From Puniceicoccaceae bacterium 5H (GTDB lineage Bacteria; Verrucomicrobiota; Verrucomicrobiia; Opitutales; Oceanipulchritudinaceae), in assembly GCA_009772895.1 (NCBI GenBank), contig WOUP01000025.1, forward strand, positions 1-46,626: a stretch of 46,626 bases of DNA, read 5' to 3'. Of this stretch, positions 1,913-21,552 are shown in pieces (the first letter of the stretch is position 1; every line of letters begins with the position of its first letter). The translations under genes and the position numbers were made by a program. The notes beneath the pieces are model-generated. The model was given only the letters and a program-made list of their open reading frames with translations. It was not told the DNA's origin and did no database searches.

Positions 1913-3328
1913 TTACGCTTCGGACTCGACCGGGCGGTCTTCCGGGGAACGGGCGTCCAGCTGGGCCTTGATCTCGTAGGCGCGGGCCTCGGTCAGCGGG
2001 TAGCTCTGGAGCACGAAAACCGCGATGAGGCAGAGCACGCCCGGCAGACCGATCTCCCAGAAGCGCATCCAGAAGAGGGTCGATCCGGCCTGCTCGACCA
2101 CCTGATCGTCGAAGCCGGTCGAATCGAGCAGGAAGCCCGAGACGAGGAACCCGGTCGAGACGGCCACCTTGAGCCACCAGCTGTAGACGGCCGAGTAGCT
2201 GCCTTCGCGCCGGAAGCCGCTCTTGAGCTCGTCCAGATTGGAGACGTCGGCCACCATCGAGACCGCCATGGTGTAGAGCGCCAGCATACCTGCCGAGATA
2301 AAGACCGTGGGGATGAGCGTGAGCCATGGCAGCGCCGGGTTATAGCACAGGATCTTGAGGAAACTGCCGCCCATCATCAGGCCGACGAAGATCTGCACCG
2401 TGCGCGCCTTGCCCAGCCGCTCGCTGGTCCACGTCATGGGCAGGACCGCCAGCAGGCCGGTGATGGCCCAGACGGTGCCGTTCCAGCCGAGCATGGTCGA
2501 CGCCGCCGCGCGGTCGCCACCGTAGACGTAAAAGATGACGATGTAGTTGGTGAAGTTGTTGACGAAGTTGAAGCCGCAGGTGACGAGGAAGACCACGCCC
2601 ACCACGCGCAGAAAGACCGAGTCGCGCAGGGTGCTCTTCATGCTGGGCCAGAACTTGACGTGCGCCTGGTGCGCCACGTCGACCTGACGCCGCTCCTTGC
2701 AGATGATGCCCGGCAGCAGTGCCGTGATCAGCACGACCCCGCCCACGATGACGGCGATCCAGCGCATGCCCTCCACCTCGCTCTCGAAGAAGTCGAGGTT
2801 GGCCAGCTTGTACATCCAGGGCGTGACGATGGCAAAGGTGTTGCCGAGGAAGCTGCCGATGGCAAAGAGGCGCGTCTTCTCGTGGTAGTCGCGGCTCATC
2901 TCGTAGCCGAGGGCCGTCAACGGCACCGAAAAGACCGTCGTGGCAGTATAGAAACAAAGGCTCACCACCAGGTAATAGGCCAGCAGCGGTCCCTCCTCCC
3001 AGCCGCGCGGGGCCCACCAGATGAGCACGTAGGTGAAGGCCGTGACGATGCCCCCGAAGATGATATACGGGCGGCGACGGCCCCAGCGCGTGCGGGTGTT
3101 GTCCGACAGGTAGCCGGTAAGGGGATCCGAGATGGCGTCCCAGAGGCGGGGGATCATCTGCACCACGCCCAGCCAGATGAGGCTGACCCCCAACCCGAGG
3201 TTGAAGATCAGGTTGGTCAGCTGGGCGACCGAGTTGATGAAGGCGATGGGGATCGCCATGCCGAGGCCGAAGGCGATCTTCTCGGCCATGGGGATCCGGT
3301 CTCGCGGCGCGGTAGAGTGATGGGCCAT
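1913..3328 (-). CDS. GPH-family (MelB-like) sugar:cation symporter
   Basis: Inner-membrane MFS transporter of 471 residues with about 12 hydrophobic segments. The family signature is clear near residues 55-85: WDAISDPLTGYLSDNTRTRWGRRRPYI, shown here in part as DAISDPLTGYLSDNT and GRRRPYI, which in MelB-type carriers holds the cation-binding aspartates. The GPH (glycoside-pentoside-hexuronide) family moves sugars or short glycosides with protons or sodium. It is the last gene of the minus-strand unit that begins with the TonB receptor, 81 bases after the PF10091 enzyme. Its likely cargo is glucose, sophorose or short beta-1,2-gluco-oligosaccharides released in the periplasm; the substrate is inferred from the neighbours only. 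No strong ribosome-binding site precedes ATG 3328. Confidence 0.88.
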   Translation of the reverse strand: MAHHSTAPRDRIPMAEKIAFGLGMAIPIAFINSVAQLTNLIFNLGLGVSLIWLGVVQMIPRLWDAISDPLTGYLSDNTRTRWGRRRPYIIFGGIVTAFTYVLIWWAPRGWEEGPLLAYYLVVSLCFYTATTVFSVPLTALGYEMSRDYHEKTRLFAIGSFLGNTFAIVTPWMYKLANLDFFESEVEGMRWIAVIVGGVVLITALLPGIICKERRQVDVAHQAHVKFWPSMKSTLRDSVFLRVVGVVFLVTCGFNFVNNFTNYIVIFYVYGGDRAAASTMLGWNGTVWAITGLLAVLPMTWTSERLGKARTVQIFVGLMMGGSFLKILCYNPALPWLTLIPTVFISAGMLALYTMAVSMVADVSNLDELKSGFRREGSYSAVYSWWLKVAVSTGFLVSGFLLDSTGFDDQVVEQAGSTLFWMRFWEIGLPGVLCLIAVFVLQSYPLTEARAYEIKAQLDARSPEDRPVESEA

Positions 3329-3409
3329 GTGGGGAGTGGCGGTCGGCTACAGGCGACCGCCGGGGAGGGTTCGGGAGTATGGAAACGGGAGCGGGAAGCG
3401 GAAAGGGGA

Positions 3410-4894
3410 TCAAGGCATGGACGCGGTGGCTTCGTTGGCGGCTTCGGTGCCGGCCTGATCGTCGACCACGGCCCCCTGCCCGGCCACATCTTCGAGCCAG
3501 CCGCCGGAGAAGCCCGCGCGCTCGAGGCCACGCACGATGTGCGGGTTGCGCTTCATCACGTCCCAGACGAAGCCGGAGCGGAAGTTCTCGATCATGAGCA
3601 GGATCGGGCCCTGGTCGATGCCCAGGTGATCCTTGCCGAACCAGCCCTTGCCGGGCACCACCTCGCCGTTGGGCACGTCGATGTCGGTATAGGTGTAGGA
3701 GGGGTTGAAGGCGTCGACGAAGCCGTGCTGGTTGTAGAGATCATCCCCGTAGCGTCGCCGCATCTCCTGGAGCGCCGGGATCACGATCTCCGGGGCGAAG
3801 GGCAGCGAAGCAGCCGCCGCGGTGGGGGCGATCGTGCCGTCGTCGGTGATGTAGTCAGCACCGGCTCCACGGGCCCGGTAGGTGAAGAATTCGCGCATGC
3901 GGCCCTTGTATTCGCGGCGCATGTCGATCGGGCCGTCGCAGGCGGTCAGGCCCCAGATGTTCTCACCGTAGTCCTCCCAGCCCAAGGGGTTGCGGATAGC
4001 GTAGGCCCGCTGGGCGTAAGCGGCGCGACGGGAGTTCTCGAAGTAGTCGATGCCCTTCTCCGCCATGAAGGCGTCCTGCACCCCGCGCAGGTCGATCCAC
4101 GACTGCGCATACTGGTGCCCGAACATCGGCGCAAAGGCGATGTGCTCCTGCTGCTGGAAGGGGTCCCAGCGGTAGGACCACACAAAGGCGTCCCAGGCGT
4201 CGGACGAGATCGGGTGCGTGGGCGAACCGAGGGCCAGCAGGTAGAGGAACATCGCCTCGTCATAGCCCTCGTAGTCCGAATCGAGGAAGCCGATCTCCGG
4301 CAGCCAGCCCATGCACATGAGGTTGGGGCGGATCTCGGCCCAGTCCCACTCCACGCGGCGGTAGAGCATCTCGGCCAACTCGCGAATCTCGGCCTCCTGC
4401 TCACCCGGGCCGTCGAAATAGCTCTGGCAAAAGAGCACGCCCATCATCAACAGCGCCGTGTCGATGGTCGACAACTCGACCTGCAGGTAACGCTTGCCGT
4501 TCTCCATGTCCAGAAAGTGGTAGTAAAACCCACGGTAGCCCGTCATGCCGACCGGCACGTCTCCCTGGGGCGCATCGGCGAAGAAGCGCAGGGTGTTCAG
4601 CACCCGATCCACGCCCTGCTTGCGTGAGATGTAGCCGCGCTCGATCCCGATCGGCCAGGCGGTGAGCCCAAAGCCGACGGCGGCGACGCTGGAAAATGAG
4701 GGCGTGGGCGCGCGGTCGGGCACCAGACCGTTGTCCGGGTTCGTCCAGTCCCAGAACCAGTCGAAGGTGCGTTCCTGGATGTCGGCCAGGAAGGCGTCTT
4801 GATCGGCGGGAATCTGCTGGGCAGTCATGGGCGGAGCCAGGAGGCCGGTGGTGAAGGCGAGCGCGAGGAGGACGCGGCGGGTACGTTGGAACAT
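3410..4894 (-). CDS. Secreted glucoamylase-like (PF10091, GH144-type) beta-glucanase
   Basis: Protein of 494 residues: signal peptide (about 1-24, RRVLLALAFTTGLLAPPMTAQ) followed by one PF10091 (alpha/alpha)6-barrel domain. Family marks include ERTFDWFWDWTNPDNGLVPDR near the start, ELSTIDTALLMMG, the acidic loop YDEAMFLYLLALGSPTHP and GPILLMIENFRSGFVW near the end. This fold includes GH144 endo-beta-1,2-glucanase and the middle domain of cyclic beta-1,2-glucan synthase. With GH94 and GH3 genes directly upstream, a beta-1,2-glucan substrate is the best reading. ATG 4894 is chosen because the signal peptide starts there and it leaves 16 bases after the GH3 stop; a longer frame to 4975 would overlap GH3. 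PF10091 proteins acting on other glucans cannot be excluded. Confidence 0.85.
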   Translation of the reverse strand: MFQRTRRVLLALAFTTGLLAPPMTAQQIPADQDAFLADIQERTFDWFWDWTNPDNGLVPDRAPTPSFSSVAAVGFGLTAWPIGIERGYISRKQGVDRVLNTLRFFADAPQGDVPVGMTGYRGFYYHFLDMENGKRYLQVELSTIDTALLMMGVLFCQSYFDGPGEQEAEIRELAEMLYRRVEWDWAEIRPNLMCMGWLPEIGFLDSDYEGYDEAMFLYLLALGSPTHPISSDAWDAFVWSYRWDPFQQQEHIAFAPMFGHQYAQSWIDLRGVQDAFMAEKGIDYFENSRRAAYAQRAYAIRNPLGWEDYGENIWGLTACDGPIDMRREYKGRMREFFTYRARGAGADYITDDGTIAPTAAAASLPFAPEIVIPALQEMRRRYGDDLYNQHGFVDAFNPSYTYTDIDVPNGEVVPGKGWFGKDHLGIDQGPILLMIENFRSGFVWDVMKRNPHIVRGLERAGFSGGWLEDVAGQGAVVDDQAGTEAANEATASMP

Positions 4895-4910
4895 TATCGG
4901 GGGGAGTATC

Positions 4911-7172
4911 TTAGGGATTGTTGGCAGATTGGACGGTAAAGGGGGCCGAGAGCGTGGCGACGGAGCTGCCGCCAACGTAGACCTTGAAGTCGCCGGGCTC
5001 GACGGTGGGCTGCAGGTTGCGGTCGAGGCAGGCCAGGTCTTCCGGTTGCAGGGTAAAGGTCAGCACCTTGGATTCGCCGGGCTCCAGCGGCACGCGCTCA
5101 AAGCGGCGCAGCTCGCGCACCGGACGGGCGGTGCTGCCCACGAGGTCCTGGATATAGAGTTGCACGACTTCGGTGCCCGGGCGCTCGCCGGCGTTGGTCA
5201 GCTCCACTTGCACCTCCAGCGAATCGTCGGGGCCGATCACTTCGGAGCTCAACTGCAGGCCGCTGTAGGAAAACTCGGTGTAGCTCAGGCCGTAGCCGAA
5301 GGGATAGAGCGGCGTCCAGGGCGCATCGATATACTTGGAGGTATACATGTCGTCCGGATCCGCCGGGCGACCGGTGTTACGGTGGTTGTAGTAGATCGGC
5401 ACCTGCCCGACGTTGCGGGGGAAGGTGATCGGCAGCTTGCCGCTCGGGTTCACGTCGCCAAAGAGCACGTCGGCCACGGCGGGGCCGGTCTCCACGCCCA
5501 GGAACCACGCTTCGAGGATCGCCGGGATGTTTTCGTCGAGCCACGGAATGCTCAGGGGACGCCCGTTCATCAGGACGACGACGATGGGCTTGCCCGTGCC
5601 GAGCACCGCCTCGGCCAGCTCGCGCTGCACACCCGGCAGGTTCAGCGAGCTACGGCTCTTGGCCTCGGCGCTCATGTCGCGGTGTTCGCCCAGCACCAGC
5701 ACCACGGCATCGGCGGCGCGGGCGGCTTCCACCGCCTGCTCGAAGCCGCTCGTATCGTGGTCGGAGACGTGACAGCCCTGCGCGTAATGGATCTCCGTCT
5801 CGGGCATGGCCTCGCGGATGCCTTCGAGCACCGTGATGGCGTCTTCCGGACGACCTGCGGCGGCCCAGTTGCCCAGGCAGGAGTGCGGGTCGTCGGCCAG
5901 GGGCCCGATGATCGCCAGGGATTGCAGGTCCTTGGAAAGCGGCAGGGTCTTGCGGTCGTTCTTGAGCAACACCATCGACTCGTGCGCCACTTCGCGCGCG
6001 GTCTGGCGGAACTCCGGCGTGAGCGTGTTGGCCTTTTCGCGCTCCACATCGCTGTAGCGGTAGGGATCGTCGAAGAGGCCCAAATCGTATTTCAGCTCCA
6101 GCACGCGGCGCACGGCGGCATCCACCACGGTTTCGTCGAGTCGCCCCGAACGTACGGCCGCGGGCAGCTCTTCGTAGATCTTGCTGAGCATGTCCACATC
6201 CACGCCCGCCTCCAGCGCCATCACGCCGGCGTCTTCACGCGTGGCGGCGACGCCGTGGTCCATCAACTCCCAGATGCCGGTGTAGTCGCTCACGACCAGG
6301 CCGTCCCAGTCCCACTCGCCGCGCAGCACTTCGCGGTAGAGGAAGGGATTGGCGTGCGAGGGCACCCCATTGATGTCGTTGAACGCCGCCATAAAGGTCG
6401 CGACGCCCGCAGCGGCCGCCGCCTTGAACGGGGGCAGATAGACCTCCCGCAGCGTGCGCTCGGAGATGTCGACCGTGTTGTAGTCGCGCCCTCCCTCGGC
6501 ACCGCCGTAAGCGGCAAAGTGTTTTGCGCAGGCCAGGATCGTGTCCGTCGCGGTCATATCGTCGCCCTGGAAGCCGCGCACCCGCGCCGCCGCCATGACC
6601 GAGCCCAGATACGGGTCTTCGCCCGCACCTTCGACCACGCGGCCCCAACGCGGCTCACGCGTCACGTCGACCATCGGGGCATAGGTCCAGTGCACGCCGT
6701 GGGCCGTGGCTTCGATCGCGGCCACGCGCGAGGACTTTTCCGCCGCCTCCGGGTCCCAGCTGGCCGACTCGGCCAACGGCACCGGAAAGATCGTGCGGAA
6801 GCCGTGGATCACGTCGTGCGCAAACAGCAGCGGGATGCCCAGCCGCGATTCCTCGACCGCGATGCGCTGCATCTCGTGGGTGACTTCCGCCCCGTAGACG
6901 CTGAGAAACGAGCCGATCTTGCCGTCGCGGATGTCGTCGGAGCCCGTTTCGGGCACGGCCGGGCCGGTATCGTTCCAGGCGCCGGGGGCCTGCGTCAACT
7001 GCCCGAACTTCTCCTCGAGGTTCATCTCGGAGATCAGGTTGTCGATAAAGGCCGCCTTCTCGGTATCGCCCGCGGAGGTGGAGGGGTTGGAGTTCGCCTG
7101 GGCCGCCCCCGTGATGGAGAGGCCTACGCTCGCGGCAAAAGCCATGGTCATGCGGAATAACGTTTGGTTCAT
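4911..7172 (-). CDS. Periplasmic GH3 beta-glucosidase (BglX-like)
   Basis: Protein of 753 residues, typical length for BglX-type GH3 enzymes. Signal peptide about 1-26 (MTMAFAASVGLSITGAAQAN); (beta/alpha)8 domain with KHFAAYG (218-224) and the nucleophile D296 in LVVSDYTG; alpha/beta sandwich domain (about 390-600, LVLGEHRDMSAEAKSR); C-terminal Fn3-like domain (about 660-745). It hydrolyses beta-glucosides from the non-reducing end; GH3 enzymes next to GH94 1,2-beta-oligoglucan phosphorylases (for example in Listeria) prefer sophorose-type linkages. The start is fixed by the TAATG overlap with the stop codon of the upstream GH94 gene, implying translational coupling. Confidence 0.92.
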   Translation of the reverse strand: MNQTLFRMTMAFAASVGLSITGAAQANSNPSTSAGDTEKAAFIDNLISEMNLEEKFGQLTQAPGAWNDTGPAVPETGSDDIRDGKIGSFLSVYGAEVTHEMQRIAVEESRLGIPLLFAHDVIHGFRTIFPVPLAESASWDPEAAEKSSRVAAIEATAHGVHWTYAPMVDVTREPRWGRVVEGAGEDPYLGSVMAAARVRGFQGDDMTATDTILACAKHFAAYGGAEGGRDYNTVDISERTLREVYLPPFKAAAAAGVATFMAAFNDINGVPSHANPFLYREVLRGEWDWDGLVVSDYTGIWELMDHGVAATREDAGVMALEAGVDVDMLSKIYEELPAAVRSGRLDETVVDAAVRRVLELKYDLGLFDDPYRYSDVEREKANTLTPEFRQTAREVAHESMVLLKNDRKTLPLSKDLQSLAIIGPLADDPHSCLGNWAAAGRPEDAITVLEGIREAMPETEIHYAQGCHVSDHDTSGFEQAVEAARAADAVVLVLGEHRDMSAEAKSRSSLNLPGVQRELAEAVLGTGKPIVVVLMNGRPLSIPWLDENIPAILEAWFLGVETGPAVADVLFGDVNPSGKLPITFPRNVGQVPIYYNHRNTGRPADPDDMYTSKYIDAPWTPLYPFGYGLSYTEFSYSGLQLSSEVIGPDDSLEVQVELTNAGERPGTEVVQLYIQDLVGSTARPVRELRRFERVPLEPGESKVLTFTLQPEDLACLDRNLQPTVEPGDFKVYVGGSSVATLSAPFTVQSANNP

Positions 7173-10100
7173 TACACTTCGATCGTGATCCGGTTCTGGT
7201 CTGGGACGAGCAGAGGCGTGACCTCGGAAGCCTCCAGGATGAGGCCGCCCGTCCTATACGGGTTCTCCTCCCGGCGGGAGGGCGCAAGCCGCGTGCCGTT
7301 TATTTGCACCGCTTCGGGGCCGAAGCCGCGACCGCGCACCCGGTAGGTGATCGACACCGGGTGGTCGAACAAGCGCACCTCCGCCACCAGCCCGTCGAGG
7401 CTGGGCGGCAGCACCGGGTCGAGCACCACATCGCCGAACGACGGGCGCACCCCCAGCAGGCACGACTTGACGAGGTTGAGGAACAGGCCGGGGCCGCTCG
7501 AGTAGAGCCGCCAGCCGCCCCGCACCGCTACTTTGCCCGCCCGCAATTCGTCCCAACGCGCGGAAGCGTCTTCGCGATCGGCAAAATCAGCATCGGAGCT
7601 GGAGAAAAAGACATTGGCTTGACGCGCCACCGCCTGCGGCAGGATCGCCTGCAGGCCCACGGGGTTGACCAGTTGCAGCGCGCGCCAGAAGCCCTCGGCA
7701 TCGCCCACCTTGGCCAGCGCCTCGGCGTAGCGGATATGGGCGTGCACATACATCAGGCCGACTTCGCGCCCGATATTGGCCGCCGTCTCCGCCCGCTTGA
7801 AGTAGTGCTCCACCCCACCCCGGTAGCGCACCGGCTCACTCATCAGGCGCACGCCGTCGTCAAAGAGCATCTCGCGGCGCACGATCTCCAGATGCCGCGC
7901 CGCTTCCTCCGGCTCGAACAGCTCGGCCAGGATGGAACGCGTCATGGGCAGCAGGCGGTAACGGATGCCGGTGGAGCTGTCGTTGGGGTGCAGGAGCAGC
8001 TTGTCGCCGTCCTCATCCCGGATGAGGAAGCCCGCCACCACGTCGTCCACCACCAGCTGGGCGTGGAAGTCGCGGCGCATGCGGGCCAGTAAATCGTCGA
8101 GCTGCGCCACCCGGCCCGCGTCTTCGCGACGCGCACACACCTCACGGAACAGCCGCAACGTGTGGTAGGCCAGGCCGACCGTCCAGGCGCTGATCATGCG
8201 CGTCCGCAACTTGGGATCGGCCGGTTGCAGCGTATCGTCCCAGTCGCCGTCGCCGTAGTTGACGAGCGCGGTATCGCCGACCAGGCGCGACTCGAGCAAC
8301 GCGATTACGCGGTCGCAATGGCGCAGGATCGTCTCCGCCGGGCCGACCTGACGAAACGTGCCGGGCTCGGTGTATTCCACACGCTCGTCGAGCAGGCTCA
8401 AGTCGTTGCTGCGCGCCAGGTAGTCGCAGAGCGCCTTGACCGGCCAGAAGCAGACATCGCCGTGGGACTCGTGTTGCTGGATGAACTGAAAGGGCGCGTG
8501 CATGAACCACTGCGGCCAGCCGCCCTCGCGGGCGTATTGCTGCCCGAAGACCGTGCGCAAGACCGCGCGCGCCACATCGAGCCGGTCCACCGCCAGCAGC
8601 CACTCCAGTGAGCCCTGGCAGACGTCGCGCACGCCCCAGGCCGCCCCGCCGTATTGCTCCAGCCCGTGGGGAGCGGAGAAGTGGATCGACGCGTTGTGGT
8701 GATACCAGGGCAGAATCTCGTCGACCCGCCCCACTCCAGCGTCTTCGCCCCCGTAGAGGTGCAGCGGCACCGGCGGGGGAGCCGCGGGCACTACGTCGCC
8801 TGCCAAGGCCGTGCGGGCCTCATGGATCACTTCCCGCAAGGCCTCTTCTCCCTCGCGCACCCCCGCCAGAACAACGTCGCAGCGGCGGGTGGGAAGGGAG
8901 CGGAAGACGACGTAGGCCGCGTTACCCTGATTTGCGCCGGGCTGGATACCGGCAGTCCCCTCTAAAGCGTCCAGTGTGCCCGGGTCTCCGAAGCCGAGAC
9001 CGAAAAGGGTATCCGGCTCTTGCTGGGCAAAAAGGCTCTCCCCCGACGGGACGACCATCGCCATCCCCTGCTCGGGCTCGAACTCGACCGTCGCAGCCGT
9101 ATCGCCCTCGGAGTCCCCCGCCATCACGCGATGCGAGACGAGTAAACGGCAAGGGTCGCCCTGTCGCACGCGGATGCGCAGGAAGGAGGCCGGCAGGTAT
9201 TCGCTGCAGGCGGCCTGCACTTCGATCGTGAGGCCCTCGAGCCGATAAAGCCACCGCACCTCGCCCGGCGTGATGGTGAACGCCGAGGGGATGCCGAGTT
9301 GCAGCCACACCCCGTCGATCTCGACGAAGATGCGCTGGCCGCTCGAACGCGTCACCCCCAGGGCGTTGCGCACCACCGGTAACAACCGGGCGAGGTTGGT
9401 GTTACCCAGGTAGGATTGAGCTCCAAAGATCCCTGCAGCGTAGCACGTGAGGCCCATGTGCCCCGGGTCGACCCGGGTATAGTCGCCACTGCGCAGGATG
9501 TGCCCGTGCGGGCGTAAAATCGTAGCCTCCTTGGCCCGTGCGACCACGTGCGTCGCGCCGTCCTGGAAAAACGAGAGCAGTCGGCCCTTGGTGTCGCGCT
9601 CTTCGTGGCGGCGTTCACCGGGGAACCATTGGCCCCATTCCGCCTCGCTCAATTCCCCGCCGTGCAGCCAGGGAGCCCGTTGGAAGAGCGAAGGCGGCAG
9701 GTCGGGCGCGGGCAGGTCTTCCGCCACCAGCGGGCGCACCCAGTCGGTCGGCAACAGCGCACGCAGGTAGCGCACATCTTCCGCCGAAGAAGCCTCTGGG
9801 TGGTCGGGCAGGAAGCGCAACAGGAAGGTGATGCGGCGGCTCTGGCCGGGCTCGATCTCGAGCGGCGCACTCTGCAGGCAGGCCATCGCACACTCATACT
9901 GCAGCTTTTCGCTCGGCAGGCTGGCCTCCATCACGGCCTTGGGCACGCTCGTAAAGCGATGATCGGCGCCGAAGAATTGCCAGCCGTCGGTGCAAAAGGC
10001 GGTCGCGCCCTCCAGACAGGCGGCCAGCAGCAGCGGATGCCGCCCCTCGGAAGCCGCCTGGTTTTGCCGCGCCAGGATCAACCAGCCGAGGTCTTCGTCC

Positions 10101-10591: not shown

Positions 10592-10656
10592 GAAAACGGG
10601 AGGGGCGGCACGGCGTGCACCATGCCGCTCGATAAGGTGGAACGTGAAAGAGCAAA

Positions 10657-10686
10657 GGCAGCGCCGCCCGCGAGGAGGGCGCTGCC
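10657..10686 (-). terminator. Hairpin between receptor and GH94 genes (terminator or attenuator)
   Basis: Perfect 9-bp stem GGCAGCGCC (10657-10665) with GGCGCTGCC (10678-10686), loop of 12. On the minus strand it lies just after the TonB receptor stop and is followed by TTTGCTCTTT, a broken U-tract. It could end part of the transcripts so that the receptor is made in excess over the cytoplasmic enzyme, or protect the receptor mRNA 3' end. Confidence 0.6.
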
Positions 10687-10704
10687 GGGCACAAAAGCGT
10701 GCGC

Positions 10705-13551
10705 TTAGAAAGTCACCTTGGCGGTAAACCGGAAGGTGCGCGGAGACTGTATATACCAGGAGTTGGGCACATGGCGGCCGTCGGCATCCTGATAGGCGTA
10801 GTGGTAGTCGGTGATGATCGGGTCGTTGTCATCAAACACGTTGTCCACGTTCAGCGCAAAGCGCACCGGCAAGTTGTGGATCTCCATCTCGTAGGCGAGC
10901 AGGAGGTTGGTCGTGGTGATGTCCGAGCCCCAGTATTCCTCGCCATCGTAGACGTTGGCATAGCGACGCCCCGTCTTGGAAATCCCGGCCCCGATGGACA
11001 GACCGTCGAGCACGCTGTCTTCGAGGAACGAGTAGGTGCCGAAGAAACTGGCCGTGTATTTGACCGAGCCTGCGACCGTCGTGCCCGGAACGGATTGGGC
11101 CAGCTTGTCGCGCACCGTTTCGATCTGGTTGCGCAGCGCGTCGGCATCGTCCTGGGTGTCGGCGGTATCGACGCCGGCTTCCCACGTGTCGATGTATTGG
11201 TCGAAGTAGGAGCGCGAGTCCGGGTAGTAGTTCACCACTTCGGAGGTCGGCTTGGCGTAGCTGGCCTGCAGGCGGATGTTTTCCGTCGGGTTGGCCGTCA
11301 CTTCAAACTCCCAGCCCTCGATATCGCGGTCGGTCGTGTCGGAGTAAGCCAGCCCCGTGCGGGCGGTATCGCGCTCCAGCTGCGGGTTGGCGTCGTAATA
11401 ACGCTCCCAGATGCCGCGCAGGCCGACCGGGTTTTCGACGAGGTGCCCCTCGGACTTGGTGTCGTAGCGGGTCAGCGTCACGTAATACTTGTTGTCGTCG
11501 GTCGAGATCCGGATGCCGTAGTCGACCCCACTGCCCTCTTCCGGGCCGGGGCGTTCACCGTTGAGCAACGGCTGGGACCCCGGATTCGGCGGCTGGATGT
11601 TTTGCGAGTAGTTGGCGAACACGCCCAGCCAGTGGAAGTAATAGATACCGCCCAGCGAGTAGGTGGTGTGGGTGTCGCTCTCGTCCGTGATCGCCGTCGA
11701 GAGGTTTTGGCCGCGGCGCAACTCCTCGATGTGCTCGTCGTAGCTGTCGACGCGCATGCCGGCCAGAATGCTCAGCGAGTCGTCGAAGAAGCGCGAGTGC
11801 GAGAGCACGGCGAAGTCCTTCAGCTTGAAGGTATCGTCGAAGTCGAACCAATAGCCGTCCGCCTTCGGGGCCCAGATCACGCTCTCTGGAAGTTCAAGCT
11901 GCTGGTTGGGCTGATCCAGGTAAAGACGGCCCCAGACCATGTTCTGCACCCAGTCCGCCGGGTTGTCCAAGGTCGAGGGATCCACCGTCTGCCCCAGATA
12001 CTGGCGCGCGGAGATCTCGAGTTTCTTGTAGGAAGTCGACGCGCTGAAGAGCTGGTGCGCCGGCATGTCGAACAGCCGGTAGTCCAGATTGTAGTTAATC
12101 TGCACCCGCGCCTCGCTCACCGTGCGGCTCTGCGTCTGCTGGCTGAGGAAGAAGTCGGCGTAAGCCTGACCGAAGTTCGGATTGGGCTGGCCGTTAGGCA
12201 ACTCGCGGTTGATGTCGATGGCCGCACCCCCGGTCGACTCATAGGCCTGGGCCGACTGGTTGTCTTCGTAGCGGTAAGCCGACGCGGTGGCCTCGAAGTT
12301 CTCGTTGAACTTGTGGTTCACCGTCAGCGTGAAGTCCTTGTATTCGGTGTCGGACACCCCGCTGCCATAGGTCCAGTCATCGTCCGGCAAGACGGGAATG
12401 CCGGCGGTCGAAAAGAGCTCGCCGTCTGCCCCCAGCCGGATCTCGTCCGGGTAGAAGCCCGCACGCGGCTGGTAGTTCAACGGCGTGTTGTTGGGCAGGC
12501 TGGTATTGGAGGCATAGCCGCCGGCCCATTCCTGCAACTGGGCATCCTCGCCCAGCCCGGGAATCAGCACGGGGTATTTCGTCAGCCAGTCGCCCCAGCC
12601 GCCCGCATTCTGGATGGGCTGGGTATTGTCGGCGCCCGGGCCGGTCGGGGCCGCACCCCAGGTCTCGGAGGCCGTCTCACCGTCCCAACCGGAAACCTTG
12701 TCGATGATGTTGGTGCCGAAGAGCGTGCGCTCCTTGTCCGCGTATTCCGCCTCGAAGGTCACCGAGGTCTGGGGAGACGGACGGTAAAGGACGGCCAGCG
12801 TCGCGGCGCGAAATTCGCCGTTGTCGTTTTCCTGCCAGCCCTTGAAGTCGTCGGCCACGGCGTTGAGGCGCACGGCCACGGTGTCGGTCGCGACCTGATT
12901 GGCGTCCAGCTCGAAGCGGGCGCCGCCGTTGCTGTCCAGGGTTGCCGTGGTCGTGGCGAAGGTGTCGTCGAGGCGTGGCCGCTTGGTGTAGACGGCGAGC
13001 GTGCCGCCCACCGTGCCGAGGCCGAAGACCAGCGAGTTGGGGCCGCGCAGGAACTCGATCCGGTCGATGTTGTAGCTGTCCGGATTCTGGTAGAAGGAGA
13101 AATAGTTACGCGTCGGGCCGGGGCCGCCTTGCTGGCCCGGGCCCGCACTGCGGTAGTTGAACGACCAGTCCTGGAACGCCGCACCGCCTTGGCCGCGGCC
13201 AGCGTTAGGATCGGCCGCCACGACGTTGGGCGCCCACTTCAGCGCGCCGCGCACGTCCTGGATGCCCAGGTCTTCGATAAAGGTCGAGGTCAGTGCGGAG
13301 ACGGACGACGGGGTGAGCTTGAGCGGGGTGTTGATGCGGCCGCCCGCGAGGGAGTCGACGGCCACATAGCCGACGTCGCCGCCCGTATTCACTTCAAAGG
13401 ACGCCAGTTCAAAAACTTGTTCGGGGTCGGGGGAGTCGTCGCCGCTTTCGGCGGGGGTCGTCGTGGTCTGCGCCGACAGAGCGAGGGGCAAACCGAGGGC
13501 CAGCAGACTGAGGCTGGACCAGAGCAGTTTCTGATGCGAAACAGGCTTCAT
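10705..13551 (-). CDS. TonB-dependent outer-membrane receptor
   Basis: Protein of 948 residues: signal peptide about 1-27 (LLWSSLSLLALGLPLALSAQ), plug domain (about 45-210) with FELASFEV, RINTPLKLTPSSVSALT and RIEFLRGPNSLVFGLGTVGG, then a long beta-barrel with many aromatic alternating strands, ending in the C-terminal phenylalanine used for barrel assembly (RFTAKVTF). It should import oligosaccharides across the outer membrane with TonB/ExbBD energy. There is no SusD-like gene beside it, as is usual in Verrucomicrobiota. It is the first gene of a minus-strand unit running to the GPH symporter. A candidate operator and a short palindrome lie in the 370 bases upstream. The sugar cargo is inferred from the cluster. 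Confidence 0.92.
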   Translation of the reverse strand: MKPVSHQKLLWSSLSLLALGLPLALSAQTTTTPAESGDDSPDPEQVFELASFEVNTGGDVGYVAVDSLAGGRINTPLKLTPSSVSALTSTFIEDLGIQDVRGALKWAPNVVAADPNAGRGQGGAAFQDWSFNYRSAGPGQQGGPGPTRNYFSFYQNPDSYNIDRIEFLRGPNSLVFGLGTVGGTLAVYTKRPRLDDTFATTTATLDSNGGARFELDANQVATDTVAVRLNAVADDFKGWQENDNGEFRAATLAVLYRPSPQTSVTFEAEYADKERTLFGTNIIDKVSGWDGETASETWGAAPTGPGADNTQPIQNAGGWGDWLTKYPVLIPGLGEDAQLQEWAGGYASNTSLPNNTPLNYQPRAGFYPDEIRLGADGELFSTAGIPVLPDDDWTYGSGVSDTEYKDFTLTVNHKFNENFEATASAYRYEDNQSAQAYESTGGAAIDINRELPNGQPNPNFGQAYADFFLSQQTQSRTVSEARVQINYNLDYRLFDMPAHQLFSASTSYKKLEISARQYLGQTVDPSTLDNPADWVQNMVWGRLYLDQPNQQLELPESVIWAPKADGYWFDFDDTFKLKDFAVLSHSRFFDDSLSILAGMRVDSYDEHIEELRRGQNLSTAITDESDTHTTYSLGGIYYFHWLGVFANYSQNIQPPNPGSQPLLNGERPGPEEGSGVDYGIRISTDDNKYYVTLTRYDTKSEGHLVENPVGLRGIWERYYDANPQLERDTARTGLAYSDTTDRDIEGWEFEVTANPTENIRLQASYAKPTSEVVNYYPDSRSYFDQYIDTWEAGVDTADTQDDADALRNQIETVRDKLAQSVPGTTVAGSVKYTASFFGTYSFLEDSVLDGLSIGAGISKTGRRYANVYDGEEYWGSDITTTNLLLAYEMEIHNLPVRFALNVDNVFDDNDPIITDYHYAYQDADGRHVPNSWYIQSPRTFRFTAKVTF

Positions 13552-13736
13552 TGGGGTAGTCGTGTTGAGGTTATTTCAGCTGACTTGGGGATTTCTCAGC
13601 CTGAAAGGAGGGGGAGTTGCCGCAGCAGGGTGGCTGCAGTCATGCCGGCTTCGTCAGCTCGGCGGATCATTTCAGGGTAAAGGGAGCAGACGCCGCGTAC
13701 TGGGGGTGGCATCTTGCCTCAATAAAGAATGAAAAC

Positions 13737-13751
13737 ATTTGCAATGCAAAT
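13737..13751. promoter_or_regulatory. Perfect palindrome ATTTGCA-A-TGCAAAT upstream of the TonB receptor
   Basis: Two 7-bp arms around one base, 186 bases before the receptor start. On the minus strand TTGCAT inside it and TTTATT 17 bases later could be a weak -35/-10 pair, placing the palindrome on the -35 box. The octamer ATGCAAAT also occurs in the operator-like site at 19685. Possible regulator-binding site or half-sites; unproven. Confidence 0.45.
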
Positions 13752-13851
13752 GCAAAACACACCTTTCTTGCACTTTTTTATCCCGAATTATGCAGCTAAA
13801 TGACTCAATATTGCGTGCTTCAGCCGTAACAAGGCCCACAGCGCAAAATGA

Positions 13852-13867
13852 ATGACAACGTTTGCAT
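13852..13867. promoter_or_regulatory. Candidate LacI operator upstream of the TonB receptor unit
   Basis: ATGACAACGTTTGCAT is an imperfect palindrome centred on CG, the usual form of a LacI-family operator. Its reverse complement ATGCAAACGTTGTCAT matches 15 of 16 bases of the site at 19685-19700 upstream of the other transcription unit of this locus. It lies between the lacI-type gene and the receptor gene, 301 bases before the receptor start. Confidence 0.6.
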
Positions 13868-13920
13868 TCACGCGATCACTACACGGATCCGTAAACGCCT
13901 GGAAGGCGCGGGTAAGCAAC

Positions 13921-14997
13921 CTACGCGACGCGGGTGGAGTCGCGAATGACGAGTGATGCCGCCAGGTCGGCCAACTGGGGCGAATGGACCTGCCCCTTGG
14001 CATTGGCCGCCTCTACAATGGCGACGACCGCCCGCTCGGCCATGGCGGCCAGGGGCTGGCGTATTGTCGTGAGCGCGGGACGCGCCATGGTAGCCCACGG
14101 TCCATCGTCAAAGCCTACCACAGAAATGTCGCCGGGGCAGCTCAGGCCGGCAGTTTGCAGGGCCGTTATGGCGCCAAAGGCGATTTCGTCGCTCGCGCAG
14201 CACAGGGCGGTCGGGCGTTCCCGGCACTCCAGCAAACGTTCCATCGCGCCCCGGCCCCCTTCAAAGTTGAAGCCGCCCTCGAGGATCCATTCGGGGCGCG
14301 TCTGTAGCTTCAACTCCTCGATCGTCTCCCGATAGCCGCTATTGCGCTCATAGGCGTCCCGCGATTCCGCGGGGCCGAGCAGCAGGCCGACTTGCGTGTG
14401 ACCGAGCTGGTGCAGCAGTCGCATAGCCGAGCGAGCCCCATCGGCGTTGTTCACGCCCACCACCGGCATGTCCAGCGACCGCGTGTCGATGTCGCGCGGC
14501 AGGGCGGCCTTGGTCAGCACCAATGGGCGCCGGTAGCCGCGCAGCTGCTCCACGTCTTCCCGCGACAGCGGCTCCGCCAGGTAGATCACGCCCGAGCTCT
14601 CGAGCCCCACGTGCTGGATCGCCTCGCGGAAGTCCTCCCCCTTTTTGCGGTTGAGGGTGCGGATCTGCACATCCCAGTCGCGCGCGGCCGCCGAGTGCAG
14701 GGTGCCAGCGAGGAAGCGGCCATAAAACTCCGAGAAAAAGATGCTCTCGTCCATCGGCACGATCACCGTCAACGTGGCATTGACGCCCCGGCGCAACATA
14801 CGCGCGCCCGGGTTGGGTGAAAAGCCGCGCCGCTCCGCCAGATCGAGGATGGCCTTGCGGCGCTCCGCGCTCACCAAGTGGGCCGTCTCCTGTCGCAGGG
14901 CCCGGGAGACCGTGGAAGCCGAGATGCCGAGCTCGGCGGCAATCGACAGGATTCCGGGTTTGTCGATTTTGGAAGACTTGGAGGATGAACGGGCCAT
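13921..14997 (-). CDS. LacI-family transcriptional regulator
   Basis: Protein of 358 residues: DNA-binding helix-turn-helix and hinge at about 15-65 (LSIAAELGISASTVSRALRQ, then NPGARMLRRG), followed by a periplasmic-binding-protein-like sensor domain (about 75-350; VIYLAEPLSRED, VVGVNNADGARSAMRLLHQLGHTQVGLLLG, VVGFDDGPWATMARPALTTIRQP). These proteins usually repress sugar genes until a ligand derived from the sugar binds. It lies between GH31 (110-base gap upstream) and the TonB receptor (369-base gap downstream), all on the same strand, and is the natural reader of the paired operator-like sites at 13852 and 19685. An 11/16 match to the operator at 15071-15086, just upstream of this gene, could allow autoregulation. 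Confidence 0.93.
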   Translation of the reverse strand: MARSSSKSSKIDKPGILSIAAELGISASTVSRALRQETAHLVSAERRKAILDLAERRGFSPNPGARMLRRGVNATLTVIVPMDESIFFSEFYGRFLAGTLHSAAARDWDVQIRTLNRKKGEDFREAIQHVGLESSGVIYLAEPLSREDVEQLRGYRRPLVLTKAALPRDIDTRSLDMPVVGVNNADGARSAMRLLHQLGHTQVGLLLGPAESRDAYERNSGYRETIEELKLQTRPEWILEGGFNFEGGRGAMERLLECRERPTALCCASDEIAFGAITALQTAGLSCPGDISVVGFDDGPWATMARPALTTIRQPLAAMAERAVVAIVEAANAKGQVHSPQLADLAASLVIRDSTRVA

Positions 14998-15070
14998 GCG
15001 GGCGTTAAAACGGACGTTACGGTGGCGAAAGAACGGGCACGACGCAAGGGTCGCCGCCCGACTCTAGCGG

Positions 15071-15086
15071 ACGCCAACGTTTACCC
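15071..15086. promoter_or_regulatory. Weak operator-like site upstream of the LacI gene
   Basis: ACGCCAACGTTTACCC keeps the CAACGTTT core of the site at 13852 (11 of 16 positions). It is 74 bases before the LacI start, in the 110-base gap after GH31. It may be an autoregulatory site or chance similarity. Confidence 0.3.
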
Positions 15087-15108
15087 TTAGGGGAGGCTGC
15101 CTATAAAA

Positions 15109-17283
15109 TCAATGCTCGAGGCGTACCACGACAGGCTGGCCGTCCACACCCTCGCCGCGCGAGACGCCATGGTCGCCCACGATTTCGACCACGACGGGAC
15201 GCTCCGGGCGGGGCCGGTCGCCCTCGGTCGAGACCACCCGCACGGTCACTTCGTCACCCTGGCGCACCGCCTCATAGGTCGTCAGCAGGTAGTCGCCCTC
15301 GCGGTAATCGAAGCCGTCACCGTCATCCTCATAGAGCGTGCCGCGGGCCTGACCGTCTTCGTCCAGCGACACCATCAGCGTCAGCGGATCGAGCGATGGT
15401 TCCGCCGTGCTCTGGATGACCTTGCCGACCGGCAGGATCGCCCCACCCCGCAGCTTGAGCTCGGCTTGATAGCCGTCCGCTTCCACGTCACCCTCCAGCA
15501 ACGAGATCGAGCGCCACGTGCCCTGCGGCAAGGCCGGGTCCTCCGCCCATTGCGGCACCACCAGCAGGTCTGCGCCGACGAGGAACGCCTGATCTTCCTC
15601 GCGCAGGCGCTGGTCTTGCGGATCGGCAAAGAAGACCGGACGCATCACCGGCAGGCCGTCGACCGAGCTTTCGCGAAAGAGCGTGTAGTAATACGGCAGC
15701 AGCCGGTAGCGACGCTGCAGGGCCGTGCGGGCCACGTCGGTCACCTCCGGCCCGAACGCCCAGGGCTCCTTGGCGTTGGAATCCTTGGTGGCATGCCCGC
15801 GGGCAAAGGGGAAGAAGCTGCCCACCGCAACCCAGTTGGCCCACAGGTCGGCCTCCGCATCGTTGCCGAAGCCGCCGAGGTCCGGGCCGTTGAACGGCTG
15901 CCCCGAGAGGCCCAGGTTGAGCGTCATGGGGATCGACCAGCGCAGGTGCTCCCAGGTGGAAAGGTTGTCGCCCGTCCAGGTCGCCGCGTAGCGCTGCCCG
16001 CCGATGTAGTTGGCGCGCGTCAGCACAAAGGGGCGCTTGTCGGGATTGACGTCGAGGACGCCCTCGCGCGTCGCCTCGACCATCAACATGCCGTAGACGT
16101 TGTGATACTGGGCATGCGGACCCGCCGGCAGCTCACCGCCACCACGGTGCCAGTTGTGCAGCGGCATCGTCTTGCTCGGCACGTTCATCACCGCCGGCTC
16201 GTTCATGTCGTTCCAGACGCCGTCGATGCCGGTGGCCATGAAGTCCGCGTACAGGTCGGCCCACCATTCCCGGGTCTCAGGCCGCGTATAGTCCGGAAAC
16301 ACGCAATCCCCCGGCCAGACATTCCCGTGAAAGGGCTGCCCGAAGGCGTCGTGCACCCATACGTCCTCGGCGTTGCCGCTTTCGTAGACGAAGTAATCCG
16401 GGTCGGTCTTGATGCCGGGGTCGATCATCCACACGGCCTTGAAGTTGTGCTCGTGCAGGTAATCATTGACGGCTTCCGGCTCCGGGAAGCCCTCGGGGTC
16501 GAAGGTGAAGACGCGAAAGCCGTCCATGTAGTCGATGTCCATCCAGATGACGTCGCAGGGGATCTCGTGCTCGCGAAAGCCGTCGGCAATCTCCTTTACG
16601 CGGTCGTCCGGATAGTAGGACCAGCGGCTTTGCTGGTAGCCCAGCGCCCACTTCGGCGGCAACGGCATGTGACCGGTCAGGTCGGCCAGGGCCTGCATCA
16701 CCGCCTGCGGCGAATCCCGCTCGATCACCACCACCGGGAACCACGGGCCGTCGCTCGTGAATTCGATGCGGTCCTCCAGCGCAAGGTGAATGCGCCAGGT
16801 GGAATCGGCCAGCACGCCAAAAGCCGTGCCGTCGGGGCGCACCCCCAGCACCCATGGGTGGGACTGGTAGAGCTGGTGACCGTCGTTATCGCGGTAACCG
16901 TAGTTGTCACGGTTCCAGAGCGTAACCTCCCGACCCGAGCGCTCCAGGGGCCCCGTCACCTCTCCCGTGCCGTAGAGACTGGTGCCCTCCGGCACGGCAA
17001 TCGTCGCCTGCGTCTGCTCCACGCCCAGGGCGTATTGTGGACGGATTTGCCAGCCCGTAGGCAGCTTGCCGCTCGGCTCCGGACGTTCCACCAGGGCGTG
17101 CGAATACGGCATCGCCTCCAGCGACAGGTCTTCGGGCAGAAACAGCGCAATAGCGTCACCGATCAGGCCGGAGTAGCCGACCTCGCGGTCGACGAAAGAC
17201 TGGGCGACAGCGGGCGCGGTGAGCGCAAAGCCGACACTGAGGGCGAGCGCGAGTGAGCGCGGACGTAAAGGCAACATGTTCAT
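15109..17283 (-). CDS. Secreted GH31 alpha-glucosidase
   Basis: Protein of 724 residues with a signal peptide (about 1-28, ALALSVGFALTAPAVAQ), a beta-sandwich N domain, and a GH31 catalytic barrel: WMDIDYMDGFRVFTFD (248-262), nucleophile D359 in GVWNDMNEPAV, acid/base candidate D439 in ATWTGDN, and the GQPFNGPDLGGFG loop. The NDMNEPAV...KTMPLHN run resembles alpha-glucosidases more than alpha-xylosidases. It would remove alpha-linked glucose in the periplasm or outside the cell. It starts 24 bases after the stop of the larger PF10091 enzyme, so the two are co-transcribed. An alpha-enzyme in a beta-1,2-glucan locus is odd: either the natural substrate has alpha linkages, or the locus handles more than one glucan. 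Confidence 0.9.
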   Translation of the reverse strand: MNMLPLRPRSLALALSVGFALTAPAVAQSFVDREVGYSGLIGDAIALFLPEDLSLEAMPYSHALVERPEPSGKLPTGWQIRPQYALGVEQTQATIAVPEGTSLYGTGEVTGPLERSGREVTLWNRDNYGYRDNDGHQLYQSHPWVLGVRPDGTAFGVLADSTWRIHLALEDRIEFTSDGPWFPVVVIERDSPQAVMQALADLTGHMPLPPKWALGYQQSRWSYYPDDRVKEIADGFREHEIPCDVIWMDIDYMDGFRVFTFDPEGFPEPEAVNDYLHEHNFKAVWMIDPGIKTDPDYFVYESGNAEDVWVHDAFGQPFHGNVWPGDCVFPDYTRPETREWWADLYADFMATGIDGVWNDMNEPAVMNVPSKTMPLHNWHRGGGELPAGPHAQYHNVYGMLMVEATREGVLDVNPDKRPFVLTRANYIGGQRYAATWTGDNLSTWEHLRWSIPMTLNLGLSGQPFNGPDLGGFGNDAEADLWANWVAVGSFFPFARGHATKDSNAKEPWAFGPEVTDVARTALQRRYRLLPYYYTLFRESSVDGLPVMRPVFFADPQDQRLREEDQAFLVGADLLVVPQWAEDPALPQGTWRSISLLEGDVEADGYQAELKLRGGAILPVGKVIQSTAEPSLDPLTLMVSLDEDGQARGTLYEDDGDGFDYREGDYLLTTYEAVRQGDEVTVRVVSTEGDRPRPERPVVVEIVGDHGVSRGEGVDGQPVVVRLEH

Positions 17284-17307
17284 CGTGGGGTAAAGGCGAA
17301 GCGGGGG

Positions 17308-19494
17308 TTATTCGGCGTCGGGCTCGAAGCCGATCGCGTCGAGCGCAGGCTGGATCTCGGGGTTGGACATAAAGAGGTCCCAGATCAGACCGGTGCGGTG
17401 ATTTTCAATCATGACCGTAATCGGGGCCTGGTTCAACGCCATGTAAACTTCTTCGTACCAGCCCTGGCTCTCGTTGAAGCCGTCGTGAAAGCCGTAGACG
17501 CCCCACACCTTGTCGCCGAGGTCGCGGTAGAAGTGCTTCAGCGCCTTCATCGACGCCTCCGGCGTGTAGGGCATGGAGGCCAGCGAGGCCATGACGTTGA
17601 TCGTGCCGTTGTCGTCGCGCGGCACCGCCCGCCCGCCGCCGGTGTTGATCCCGGCCGAAAGGCCCCAGCAATCCTCGCCGTAGCCCTTGAAGTCACGGGG
17701 GTTGTCCATGGCGTAGGCCTGGCTGATCAGCGCGATCGCCCGGTTGTTCTCAAAGTAGTTTGTGTAGCGATCGCGTTTGCCGCGCGGGTCGAAACCCATG
17801 TAGGAAAAGTGCGTGAAGAACAGGTCCGAGCCGCTGCCGCAGCCCACATCCAGCTTGATGCCGTAGTAGCGGTTGCCGTTCACATAGTGGTCGCCTGCGG
17901 TCGTGCGGCTCCAGTTCTGCCGGTAGTGCACCGCTTCTTCGGAGGTGCCCGCAAAGCCCGTATGGTAGAGGCTGGCTGGCACGGGATGTGTGGGCGAGGC
18001 GATGGCCAGCAGGTAGATGATCATCGTCTCGTTCCAGCCGATCAGCGGGTGGCTGATGTGGAAGCCGTGGTCGGGCGACCAGTGCCAGTAGATGAAGTCG
18101 CTGTCTTCGCTCTTGCGATACCAGTCCCACTCCACCTCTTCCCAAAAGCGCGTGATCGTCTCGCGGATCTGCTGCTCTTCGGCGCTGCCGCGATCGAAAT
18201 ACTGGCGCGCCGCGAGCAGACCCTGGATCATGAAGGCCGTCTCGACCAGGTCGCCGCCGTTGTCGTATTTGCCGAAAAAGGCGACCGCTTTGCCCGTCTC
18301 GGCATTGATGAAGTGCGGCCAGACGCCGTGGAAGCGCTCCGCCCGATCGAGGAAATCGAGAATCGTCTGCATCCGGCCGATCGCCTCGTCGCGCGTTACA
18401 AAGCCCCGCTCCGCCGCGACCAACAGGGCCATCACGCCAAAGCCGTTGCCGCCCAGCGCCACCAGACGCGAATCGCCGGGCCACACCTCCGGAGCGAGGC
18501 CCGAACTCGGATGCGCAGCCTCCCAATAGTAGCGGAAGCACGCACGCTGCACCATCGTCAGCAGCTCGTCGTCGCTCATCTCGTGGGTCGTCGCCGCGAT
18601 CGTCTCGGAGACCTCCGATTCGTTGCCCGCGAGATCGACCGCGCTCACGCGATAGTATGCCGTCTGGTCCGACTCGCCCAAAAAGTCCTCAAAGCGCGTC
18701 ACGTGCCCCTGCTGGATGCCCAGAGGCTCGAAGTCCTCGCCATCCCGGGAGCGGTAGACCTTGTAATACAACAAGTCGTCGGCCTCGCTCGGCTGCCACG
18801 CGATGTCGACATGACGGTCCGCCCCCTGCGCCTCCAAATGCGCGGGCACAGGGGGCGGTGTCGTGTCGTGGTTGCCTAGATCGTGGACCTGAAAGTCGTC
18901 GAGATACAGCGTGTGCGGCTCCCCATCGTCCAACCCCTGCATGAAGGTGACGCTGACCATGTCTTCGGAGCGGAACTTCGGGTCGTCCGTGCCGTGGTAG
19001 AGCCCCTCGTGAAACGCCGCCAGGGGCAGCGTCACGCGCGTCCATTGCTCCGCCGGCAGCGTCTCGCCATCCTTCACCAGACGCAGCGTGCCCGTGCCAT
19101 TGCCGTCGCGGTCGCGCAGGAAGACCAGCGGCGAGTTCAAGCGCGTGATCTCCTGGTCCGAGTAGACCCAGAAGCTGAGCGCGTCGCCCTCGAACTTGAA
19201 CTGGCGGGCGTAGCGGCGCGGGATTTCGGTCGTGATCTGCCAGTCGCCACCGAAGGCCGACGTCCATTGCAGCCGCAACGCATTGGGCGGGGTGACGAAA
19301 TGCTCGTGTTCGACCGGAAACTTGCCGTCGGCCGTCTCCAGCGAACTGGGTTCGACCCGCATACTGTAGCTGTATTCGGCCCCGTCGTCGGCTGCGCTGT
19401 TGGCGAAGAGCACGTGACGGTCGTAAAAGGATTGGGACAACGCCGAAGTGGCAAAAAGGGCACTCATGGCGAGAGCAGTAAGGGGATACTTCAT
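17308..19494 (-). CDS. Large secreted PF10091/GH144-type enzyme with binding module and Fn3
   Basis: Protein of 728 residues: signal peptide about 1-20 ([19 protein letters not shown]); beta-sandwich, carbohydrate-binding-like region (about 25-212, ending [13 protein letters not shown]); Fn3 domain (about 213-310, [22 protein letters not shown]...[16 protein letters not shown]); then a PF10091 catalytic domain (about 315-725) with [60 protein letters not shown] and [17 protein letters not shown]. The catalytic domain parallels the enzyme at 3410-4894 but is clearly divergent, so the locus has two paralogous enzymes with different architectures. The added modules suggest action on polymeric or surface-bound glucan. 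It is the first gene of its unit, with an operator-like site about 190 bases upstream. Confidence 0.87.
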
Positions 19495-19684: not shown

Positions 19685-19700
19685 ATGCAAATGTTGTCAT
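19685..19700. promoter_or_regulatory. Candidate LacI operator upstream of the PF10091-GH31-lacI unit
   Basis: ATGCAAATGTTGTCAT is nearly identical (15/16, or 16/17 including the following T) to the reverse complement of the site at 13852-13867. It lies 191 bases upstream of the enzyme start at 19494. Two such sites upstream of the two units of one locus, and not seen elsewhere in the window, point to shared control by the LacI protein at 13921-14997. Confidence 0.6.
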
Positions 19701-20807: not shown

Positions 20808-20809
20808 TC

Positions 20810-21520: not shown

Positions 21521-21552
21521 GGGGAAGCGCCGAGCAATCCTGTAAGCACCCC

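Follow-up and report, generated by a model that had tools for sequence, protein, structure and literature searches.

A predicted LacI-controlled locus for beta-1,2-glucan utilization in Opitutales of the phylum Verrucomicrobiota

INTRODUCTION

To our knowledge, systems that degrade beta-1,2-glucan are known from few bacteria. In many bacteria, cyclic beta-1,2-glucans act as factors of symbiosis, virulence and osmoregulation, and the polymer is made mostly as rings. Two described systems come closest to the one reported here. In Listeria innocua, lin1839-lin1840 place a 1,2-beta-oligoglucan phosphorylase (SOGP) beside a sophorose-preferring GH3 enzyme (PMC3960220, PMC4757417, PMC8861115). The SGL cluster of Ignavibacterium album contains two GH144 genes, a GH94 homologue and sugar transporters, and its authors propose TonB-dependent uptake (PMC8861115). 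In this study, we analyzed a 46,626-bp stretch of Puniceicoccaceae bacterium 5H (WOUP01000025.1), referred to below as the window, which is the entire contig C33 of a 98.6%-complete genome of 40 contigs and 4.10 Mb. Eight genes at positions 1913 to 19494 form a locus which, judging from its gene content, very probably scavenges exogenous beta-1,2-glucan and appears to comprise two operons controlled by a single local LacI repressor.

RESULTS

The original prediction, made from the letters of the window alone, had described eight minus-strand genes at 1913 to 19494, and both the open reading frame (ORF) positions and the Pfam matches bear this out. At the center of the locus is a 1,139-amino-acid (aa) GH94 protein (7172..10591, minus strand), which matched SOGP_N (PF21958, 181 bits), SOGP_2nd (PF21250, 132 bits) and SOGP_4th (PF21270, 27.8 bits), all above the cut-offs. 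Its nearest solved structure was the SOGP of L. phytofermentans (LpSOGP, 5h3z), with 603 bits over query residues 96 to 1120. The sole other relative at E 0.001, among solved structures only, was 4zle with 30 bits, and assignment to another characterized phosphorylase was rejected on this comparison. The RDVCQG motif, pointed out beforehand in the window protein, is also present in LpSOGP. Since LpSOGP was its only close solved structure, the protein did not side with cellobiose, chitobiose or laminaribiose phosphorylases, and the proposed assignment as a 1,2-beta-oligoglucan phosphorylase stands. LpSOGP acts on substrates with a degree of polymerization of 3 or more (PMC5309861). In the window genome, the SOGP was the only match of profile A2.

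The two PF10091 matches of the whole genome both lie inside the locus. The short protein (494 aa, N-terminal leader; 3410..4894 with an internal ATG taken as start, minus strand; PF10091, 271 bits) is a predicted GH144 endo-beta-1,2-glucanase. Its best match in the Protein Data Bank (PDB) was XcSGL of Xanthomonas campestris (XCC2207, 8xul; 598 bits), its nearest solved relative. In the alignment with XcSGL (in the crystal chain of which Gln replaces the catalytic Glu), the short protein retained the positions given as E239, F286 and Y367, in addition to an Asp at the general-base candidate, and the same Glu, Phe, Tyr and acidic base candidate were found in two of its orthologues. XcSGL is an endo-acting enzyme whose specificity, among the tested substrates, is for beta-1,2-glucan; its authors place it in GH144, which makes GH193 wrong for the short protein (PMC12102758). 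The same paper uses a Tyr at subsite -3 as a clan marker.

The long protein (728 aa; 17308..19494, minus strand) best matched BDI_3064 (5z06, 670 bits) over nearly its full length, residues 25 to 720 against 7 to 699, with the N-terminal extra region included. We take BDI_3064 to be the exo-acting EC 3.2.1.214 enzyme of Parabacteroides distasonis, and also to be the GH144 homologue with an extra N-terminal region discussed below. The long protein retained the clan Glu and Phe (in the GWNE and LFF stretches) and a D-x3-D-x2-E stretch, but the subsite -3 Tyr was replaced by Thr, and its two orthologues had one Thr and one Ser. The prediction that both proteins are GH144-type enzymes with their catalytic residues thus held for the Glu, the Phe and the acidic base candidate of each, with the correction that the long one lacks the -3 Tyr. 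An exo-enzyme that releases a disaccharide may not need this Tyr, and release of sophorose from non-reducing ends is reported for a homologue in GH144 that carries additional N-terminal sequence (PMC8861115). We therefore classify the long PF10091 protein as a GH144 enzyme and assign the sophorose-releasing exo-activity with moderate confidence only, given the Thr where Tyr was expected. GH189 structures were absent from the PDB matches of both proteins, and assignment to GH189 is ruled out by their matches to GH144 structures.

The GH94 stop and the GH3 start overlap as TAATG, as predicted; the junction reads ...GTGTAATGAAC. The GH3 protein, a predicted beta-glucosidase (753 aa, N-terminal leader; 4911..7172, minus strand), best matched JMB19063 (749 bits), and further matches included 5xxl (705 bits), presumably BtBGL, and Lin1840 (593 bits). 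Arg602 aligned with Arg587 of JMB19063 and Arg572 of Lin1840, the subsite +1 Arg of the Lin1840/JMB19063 group. This residue binds sophorose and laminaribiose in Lin1840, and in this group it sits on a loop of the neighboring subunit (PMC4757417). Three further GH3 genes lie outside the locus in the window genome. The TonB-dependent receptor (TBDT, 948 aa; 10705..13551, minus strand) was recognized by its TonB plug (PF07715, 41 bits); SusD was matched by none of the eight proteins, so that the locus, as foreseen, holds a receptor without a SusD partner and differs from the SusC/SusD pairs of Bacteroidota. The GPH-type (MFS_2) sugar:cation symporter (471 aa; 1913..3328, minus strand; PF13347, 216 bits) is proposed to import short beta-1,2-gluco-oligosaccharides across the inner membrane. 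The N-termini were inspected by eye for signal peptides, without a predictor. Hydrophobic leaders were seen on both GH144 proteins, GH3, TBDT and GH31, and none was seen on GH94, which agrees with the localization first suggested for GH3, GH94 and the two PF10091 proteins.

The LacI-family regulator (358 aa; 13921..14997, minus strand) scored 26.4 bits against the helix-turn-helix (HTH) domain PF00356, just under the cut-off of 27. The Pfam matches agree with the presence of both a GPH symporter and a LacI regulator in the cluster. The HTH stretch was near-invariant in six orthologues (the window and five other Opitutales). A 14-bp near-palindrome was common to the intergenic stretches of the window and two related genomes, one of the window's genus (G387) and one of its family (G392). 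The exact pattern TGMAAAYRTTKTCA occurred at three sites in the whole 4.1-Mb genome, all upstream of the two predicted operons and none elsewhere, as expected for a local LacI regulon. Two of the predicted operators precede the TBDT-GH94-GH3-GH144-GPH operon (TGCAAATGTTTTCA at 13730..13743 and TGCAAACGTTGTCA at 13853..13866, both on the minus strand), and the third precedes the GH144-GH31-LacI operon (TGCAAATGTTGTCA at 19686..19699, plus strand). The reversed pattern, used as a control, was found 0 times in the window genome and 0 times in G392, and TGMAAAYRTTKTCA itself occurred at one place each in G387 and G392, within the locus. The palindromic consensus TGMAAAYRTTTKCA, with one mismatch allowed, gave 10 sites in the window genome, 3 of them in the locus, and its reversed control gave 2; two of the ten were exact, one in the locus and one at C19:16239.

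A related consensus was present in 25 of the 27 loci of the neighboring family f3, which we took as Opitutaceae; it was missing in G099 and in G464, a 9-kb contig. Across 30 Opitutales loci, 68 sites were counted in 981,620 bp compared with 0.2 expected from shuffles (mononucleotide, 200-bp blocks, five per locus), and 10 of the 68 were flagged inside an ORF in its longest reading. Because the consensus had been read from the window, G387 and G392, the independent test is confined to the 27 f3 loci. The f3 sites were mostly upstream of GH144, TBDT, GH94, LacI or GPH. The operator pattern and the near-invariant HTH indicate that both operons, and hence also the GH31 gene, probably answer to the local LacI.

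Next, we examined the distribution of the locus in 387 genomes of the phylum. SOGP_N was found in 26 of them, and a GH144-type PF10091 protein (at least 90 bits, a cut chosen to exclude a weak match inside long synthase-like ORFs) was found in 22 of these 26 genomes versus 26 of the 361 others (Fisher P = 7e-19, uncorrected for kinship). Elsewhere in the phylum, further genomes also have long ORFs with weak PF10091 matches. SOGP (at least 400 bits) was detected in 31 of 252 f3 genomes and in 3 of 17 genomes of the window's family; the f3 count, like that for GH31 below, is a lower bound, as only the best 2 (SOGP) and 4 (GH31) candidates per genome were scored. Neighborhoods were scanned in 24 of the 25 other SOGP genomes, the 4-kb contig of G344 being left out. 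The 33 Opitutales loci compared, including the window and excluding G579, G468 and a second copy in G637, contained GH94 (31), TBDT (28), LacI (27), GH3 (23), GPH (22), a larger GH144 (22), the long GH144 (19), GH31 (6) and the short GH144 (3). Presence was scored with phmmer over the whole stretch at more than 400 bits for GPH, LacI, GH3 and TBDT, 600 for the short and larger GH144, 700 for the long GH144 and GH31, and 800 for GH94; several loci are on contigs ending near the gene, where absences are unproven. G387 had the same eight-gene order, and in G392 the LacI-GH31 genes were divergent from TBDT-GH94-GH3-GH144-GPH, with no long GH144 in the stretch read. Opitutales relatives thus carry the locus that had been called verrucomicrobial in type: it is conserved across Opitutales with the GPH symporter as importer, and the recurrence of the same gene set in other genomes makes chance an implausible source of the cluster.

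Several other proteins were encountered in these neighborhoods. The larger GH144 is exemplified by a 910-aa protein at L041:14172-16904; its C-terminal part is long, it gave a weak CBM9-like match, and its relatives are those counted in 22 of the 33 loci. In three Opitutaceae loci, a protein of about 1,065 to 1,095 aa with an F5/8-type C domain is encoded beside GPH (L196:3279-6476, L038:14323-17526 and L206:11029-14313); one of the three copies has a weak 6-hairpin rhamnosidase match, and the protein is a candidate for an as yet unknown glycosidase of the beta-1,2-glucan pathway. A weak GH125 (alpha-mannosidase) match lies between two GH3 genes in one Opitutaceae locus (L196:8863-10791). The SOGP gene of G074 (L039:7995-11341) is split over several frames, and the PF10091 matches near it hold internal stops, which suggests a decaying or misassembled copy. 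Two other genomes of the window's family appear to encode a cyclic glucan synthase.

The GH31 gene (724 aa, N-terminal leader; 15109..17283, minus strand) encodes an alpha-glucosidase-type enzyme, which matched PF01055 (405 bits) and, as its best PDB match, 5djw (934 bits). The motif WNDMNE, which we take to be the GH31 nucleophile region, was invariant in five Opitutales copies, and the catalytic barrel of the family was recognized. The structure 5djw is presumably BT_3299 of B. thetaiotaomicron, which does not settle the specificity, and neither does the assignment of BT3299 to a mannan regulon in one paper. Orthologues of GH31 occur in the loci of five other Opitutales. Close GH31 homologues (at least 1,000 bits) were carried by 11 of 269 Opitutales genomes, of which 8 also had SOGP, compared with 26 of the 258 genomes without such a GH31 (P = 4e-6, uncorrected for kinship). 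In six of the eight genomes with both, the GH31 gene ended no more than about 10.6 kb away from the start of SOGP, and in G571 and G140 the two were on different contigs. The six locus copies fell on one side of a branch, requiring one change (0 of 500 shuffles were as low); the branch support of only 37 allows a single origin of the locus copies but does not show it. Because five of the six locus copies went into building the GH31 profile A1, their higher A1 scores partly reflect the way it was made. In the window, 24 bp separate GH31 from the long GH144 ahead of it, in the operon headed by an operator; in G392, operators lie between GH31 and the divergent TBDT. The operator was absent near all five GH31 copies outside the locus (stretches of 4.5 to 19 kb). 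Altogether, the genome counts, distances to SOGP, tree and operators indicate that GH31 is an occasional member of the locus and that the association is real but optional. Another GH31 of the window genome, distantly related and with a PA14 domain, lies outside the locus (C30:3863-6760, L267).

The flanks of the locus in the window (858-1904 and 19829-26134) were ordinary: a CNNM/CBS protein identified by Pfam, a tRNA-Cys, a ParA-type ATPase, an RNase III and a TRCF/Mfd-type helicase. A 289-aa ORF at 21647-22516 had no Pfam match at E 1e-5 and ends with VPEPATSALALGALALACVGYRRMRR, which to our eye resembles a PEP-CTERM sorting signal.

DISCUSSION

The proteins of the locus can be arranged into a pathway. 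The TonB receptor would carry cyclic or linear beta-1,2-glucans over the outer membrane. Once in the periplasm, the chains would be cut endolytically by the short GH144, the long GH144 would free sophorose from non-reducing ends, GH3 would free glucose from sophorose and short oligosaccharides, and GH31 would take off alpha-linked glucose. Short oligosaccharides would be brought in by the GPH symporter, and the cytosolic SOGP would save ATP by phosphorolyzing those with at least three units, which yields glucose 1-phosphate. With LacI at the three operators, both operons would stay repressed until an oligosaccharide is present.

Several observations weigh against this scheme, beginning with the substituted Tyr of the long GH144 and the lack of GH31 in 27 of the 33 loci. 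The best model for the TBDT was the siderophore receptor TIGR01783, at 104 bits and below its cut-off, and the cargo is therefore suggested by the gene context; the curated GPH model gave 153 bits against a cut-off of 231. Sophorose is not a substrate of LpSOGP (PMC5309861), and since the GH3 looks exported from its leader, the locus shows no cytosolic enzyme that would hydrolyze sophorose. With respect to the operators, the reversed control matched once per strand in G387, where the pattern itself was no more frequent than this control. Seven of the ten one-mismatch TGMAAAYRTTTKCA sites, one of them exact, lie elsewhere in the genome: the exact one, on C19, is flanked by two ORFs without a Pfam match, with a GH43 gene a few kilobases off; the two on C14 are by or inside glycosyltransferase genes and by a HAD hydrolase; the other four are on C2, C22 and C31. 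When the plain 14-mer was searched with up to three mismatches, the window gave 4 matches versus 1.54 expected, and 9 of 100 shuffles reached 4, which is not significant.

The window genome also encodes an OpgG/MdoG homologue (C22:69226-70770, L268:5226-6770; 595 bits), an internal glucan source thus being possible. The homologue scored 431 bits with OpgG and 326 bits with the OpgD entry 8x18, presumably XccOpgD, and is thus closer to OpgG. Together with a GT2 gene just downstream (L268:7353-9512), it suggests that the bacterium makes osmoregulated glucan itself. The locus could then serve recycling rather than foraging, by turning over the osmoregulated periplasmic glucan of the cell itself or of lysed kin. 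We consider this unlikely, as a TonB receptor and a dedicated repressor would point to an external, inducible substrate, and opgG is on a different contig without an exact operator match, about 150 kb from the one-mismatch site C22:221183. Still less probable, to the point of being hardly credible, is another beta-glucan such as laminarin as the true substrate. Lin1840, of the same GH3 group, cleaves laminaribiose too (PMC4757417), but LpSOGP phosphorolyzes neither laminaribiose nor cellobiose (PMC5309861), XcSGL showed specificity for beta-1,2-glucan over the other polysaccharides tested (PMC12102758), and Pfam found no GH16, GH17, GH5 or GH9 match in the eight locus proteins. Scavenging of exogenous beta-1,2-glucan hence remains the preferred reading of the locus.

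For GH31 itself, which the original prediction named but gave no role, the published beta-1,2-glucan schemes that we compared have no place in their available texts. One proposal starts from XccOpgD, which makes alpha-1,6-cyclized beta-1,2-glucohexadecaose, a beta-1,2-glucan with one alpha-1,6 bond; that account treats synthesis, and the alpha-1,6 bond of the product would suit a GH31 enzyme (PMC11228985). Six of the 33 loci, including that of the window, may have been extended to consume such rings, with GH31 removing the alpha-1,6-linked glucose exposed after endo-cleavage and trimming; we put this forward tentatively and regard it as rather doubtful. We found no description of a degradation route for the alpha-1,6-cyclized glucan, and "GH31" is absent from PMC11228985 and PMC11842490, the two texts searched for it in this connection. 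The main alternative, that GH31 is a passenger for an unrelated alpha-glucoside such as maltodextrin and its position in the locus is incidental, is quite possible and falls just short of probable. It fits the rarity of GH31 in the loci and the wider family: among 80 GH31 relatives in named genomes, only 3, all from Opitutales, had SOGP or GH144 in the flanks (up to 10 kb, some contigs being short). In six of the 80 loci (Dyella, Luteimonas, Rhodanobacteraceae, Opitutaceae palsa_1470, a Spartobacteria metagenome-assembled genome [MAG] and Cerasicoccus), the 10 neighboring ORFs gave no beta-1,2-glucan context; they matched UvrA (twice), DUF4139, an alpha-L-fucosidase, a histidine kinase, a sigma-54 regulator, a phage sheath protein and, adjoining the Cerasicoccus GH31, an alpha-amylase-family protein, and two had no match. 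A mere passenger agrees less well with the operator-headed operon of the window, the operators between GH31 and TBDT in G392, the proximity to SOGP in six of eight genomes, the position of the locus copies on one side of a branch (support 37) and the lack of operators by all five copies outside the locus.

If the scavenging reading is correct, the locus is an operator-tagged marker for probable beta-1,2-glucan consumers in Opitutales. If the GH31 step is also true, the six loci would encode a set of enzymes acting on the rings that plant pathogens close through an alpha-1,6 bond, and thus a degradation route for a glucan reported to be vital to plant infection by Xanthomonas.

The original prediction of a complete system new to the phylum stands in part. 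The gene combination as such is known from I. album (PMC8861115), and we found no report from Verrucomicrobiota: a search by title and start of abstract, with subscription journals and preprints outside its coverage, returned no beta-1,2-glucan locus of this type, and "Verrucomicrob" is absent from the available texts of PMC12102758, PMC11842490, PMC8861115 and PMC5309861. Unlike the window, I. album has an ABC importer and a GH35 glucosyltransferase, and its GH94 protein is described as a homologue of the C-terminal domain of a cyclic glucan synthase (CGS). The introduction of that paper lists GH3 and its discussion states that there is no beta-glucosidase homologue, a gap noted by the authors that is comparable to the missing sophorose hydrolase here; "GH31" does not occur in its available text, in which GPH and LacI were not searched for (PMC8861115). 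In L. innocua, both enzymes are cytosolic and the transport component is an ABC-type binding protein, whereas the GH3 of the window has an export leader; the Listeria accounts as available include neither GH144 nor a TonB receptor. The available account of XcSGL, which shares its key residues with the short GH144, treats the enzyme alone, without a utilization locus (PMC12102758). Altogether, the general kind of system is already known from Listeria and I. album, and what is new here is a phylum for which no report was found, a GPH symporter in place of an ABC importer, a local LacI regulon with a defined operator, and an optional GH31 enzyme.

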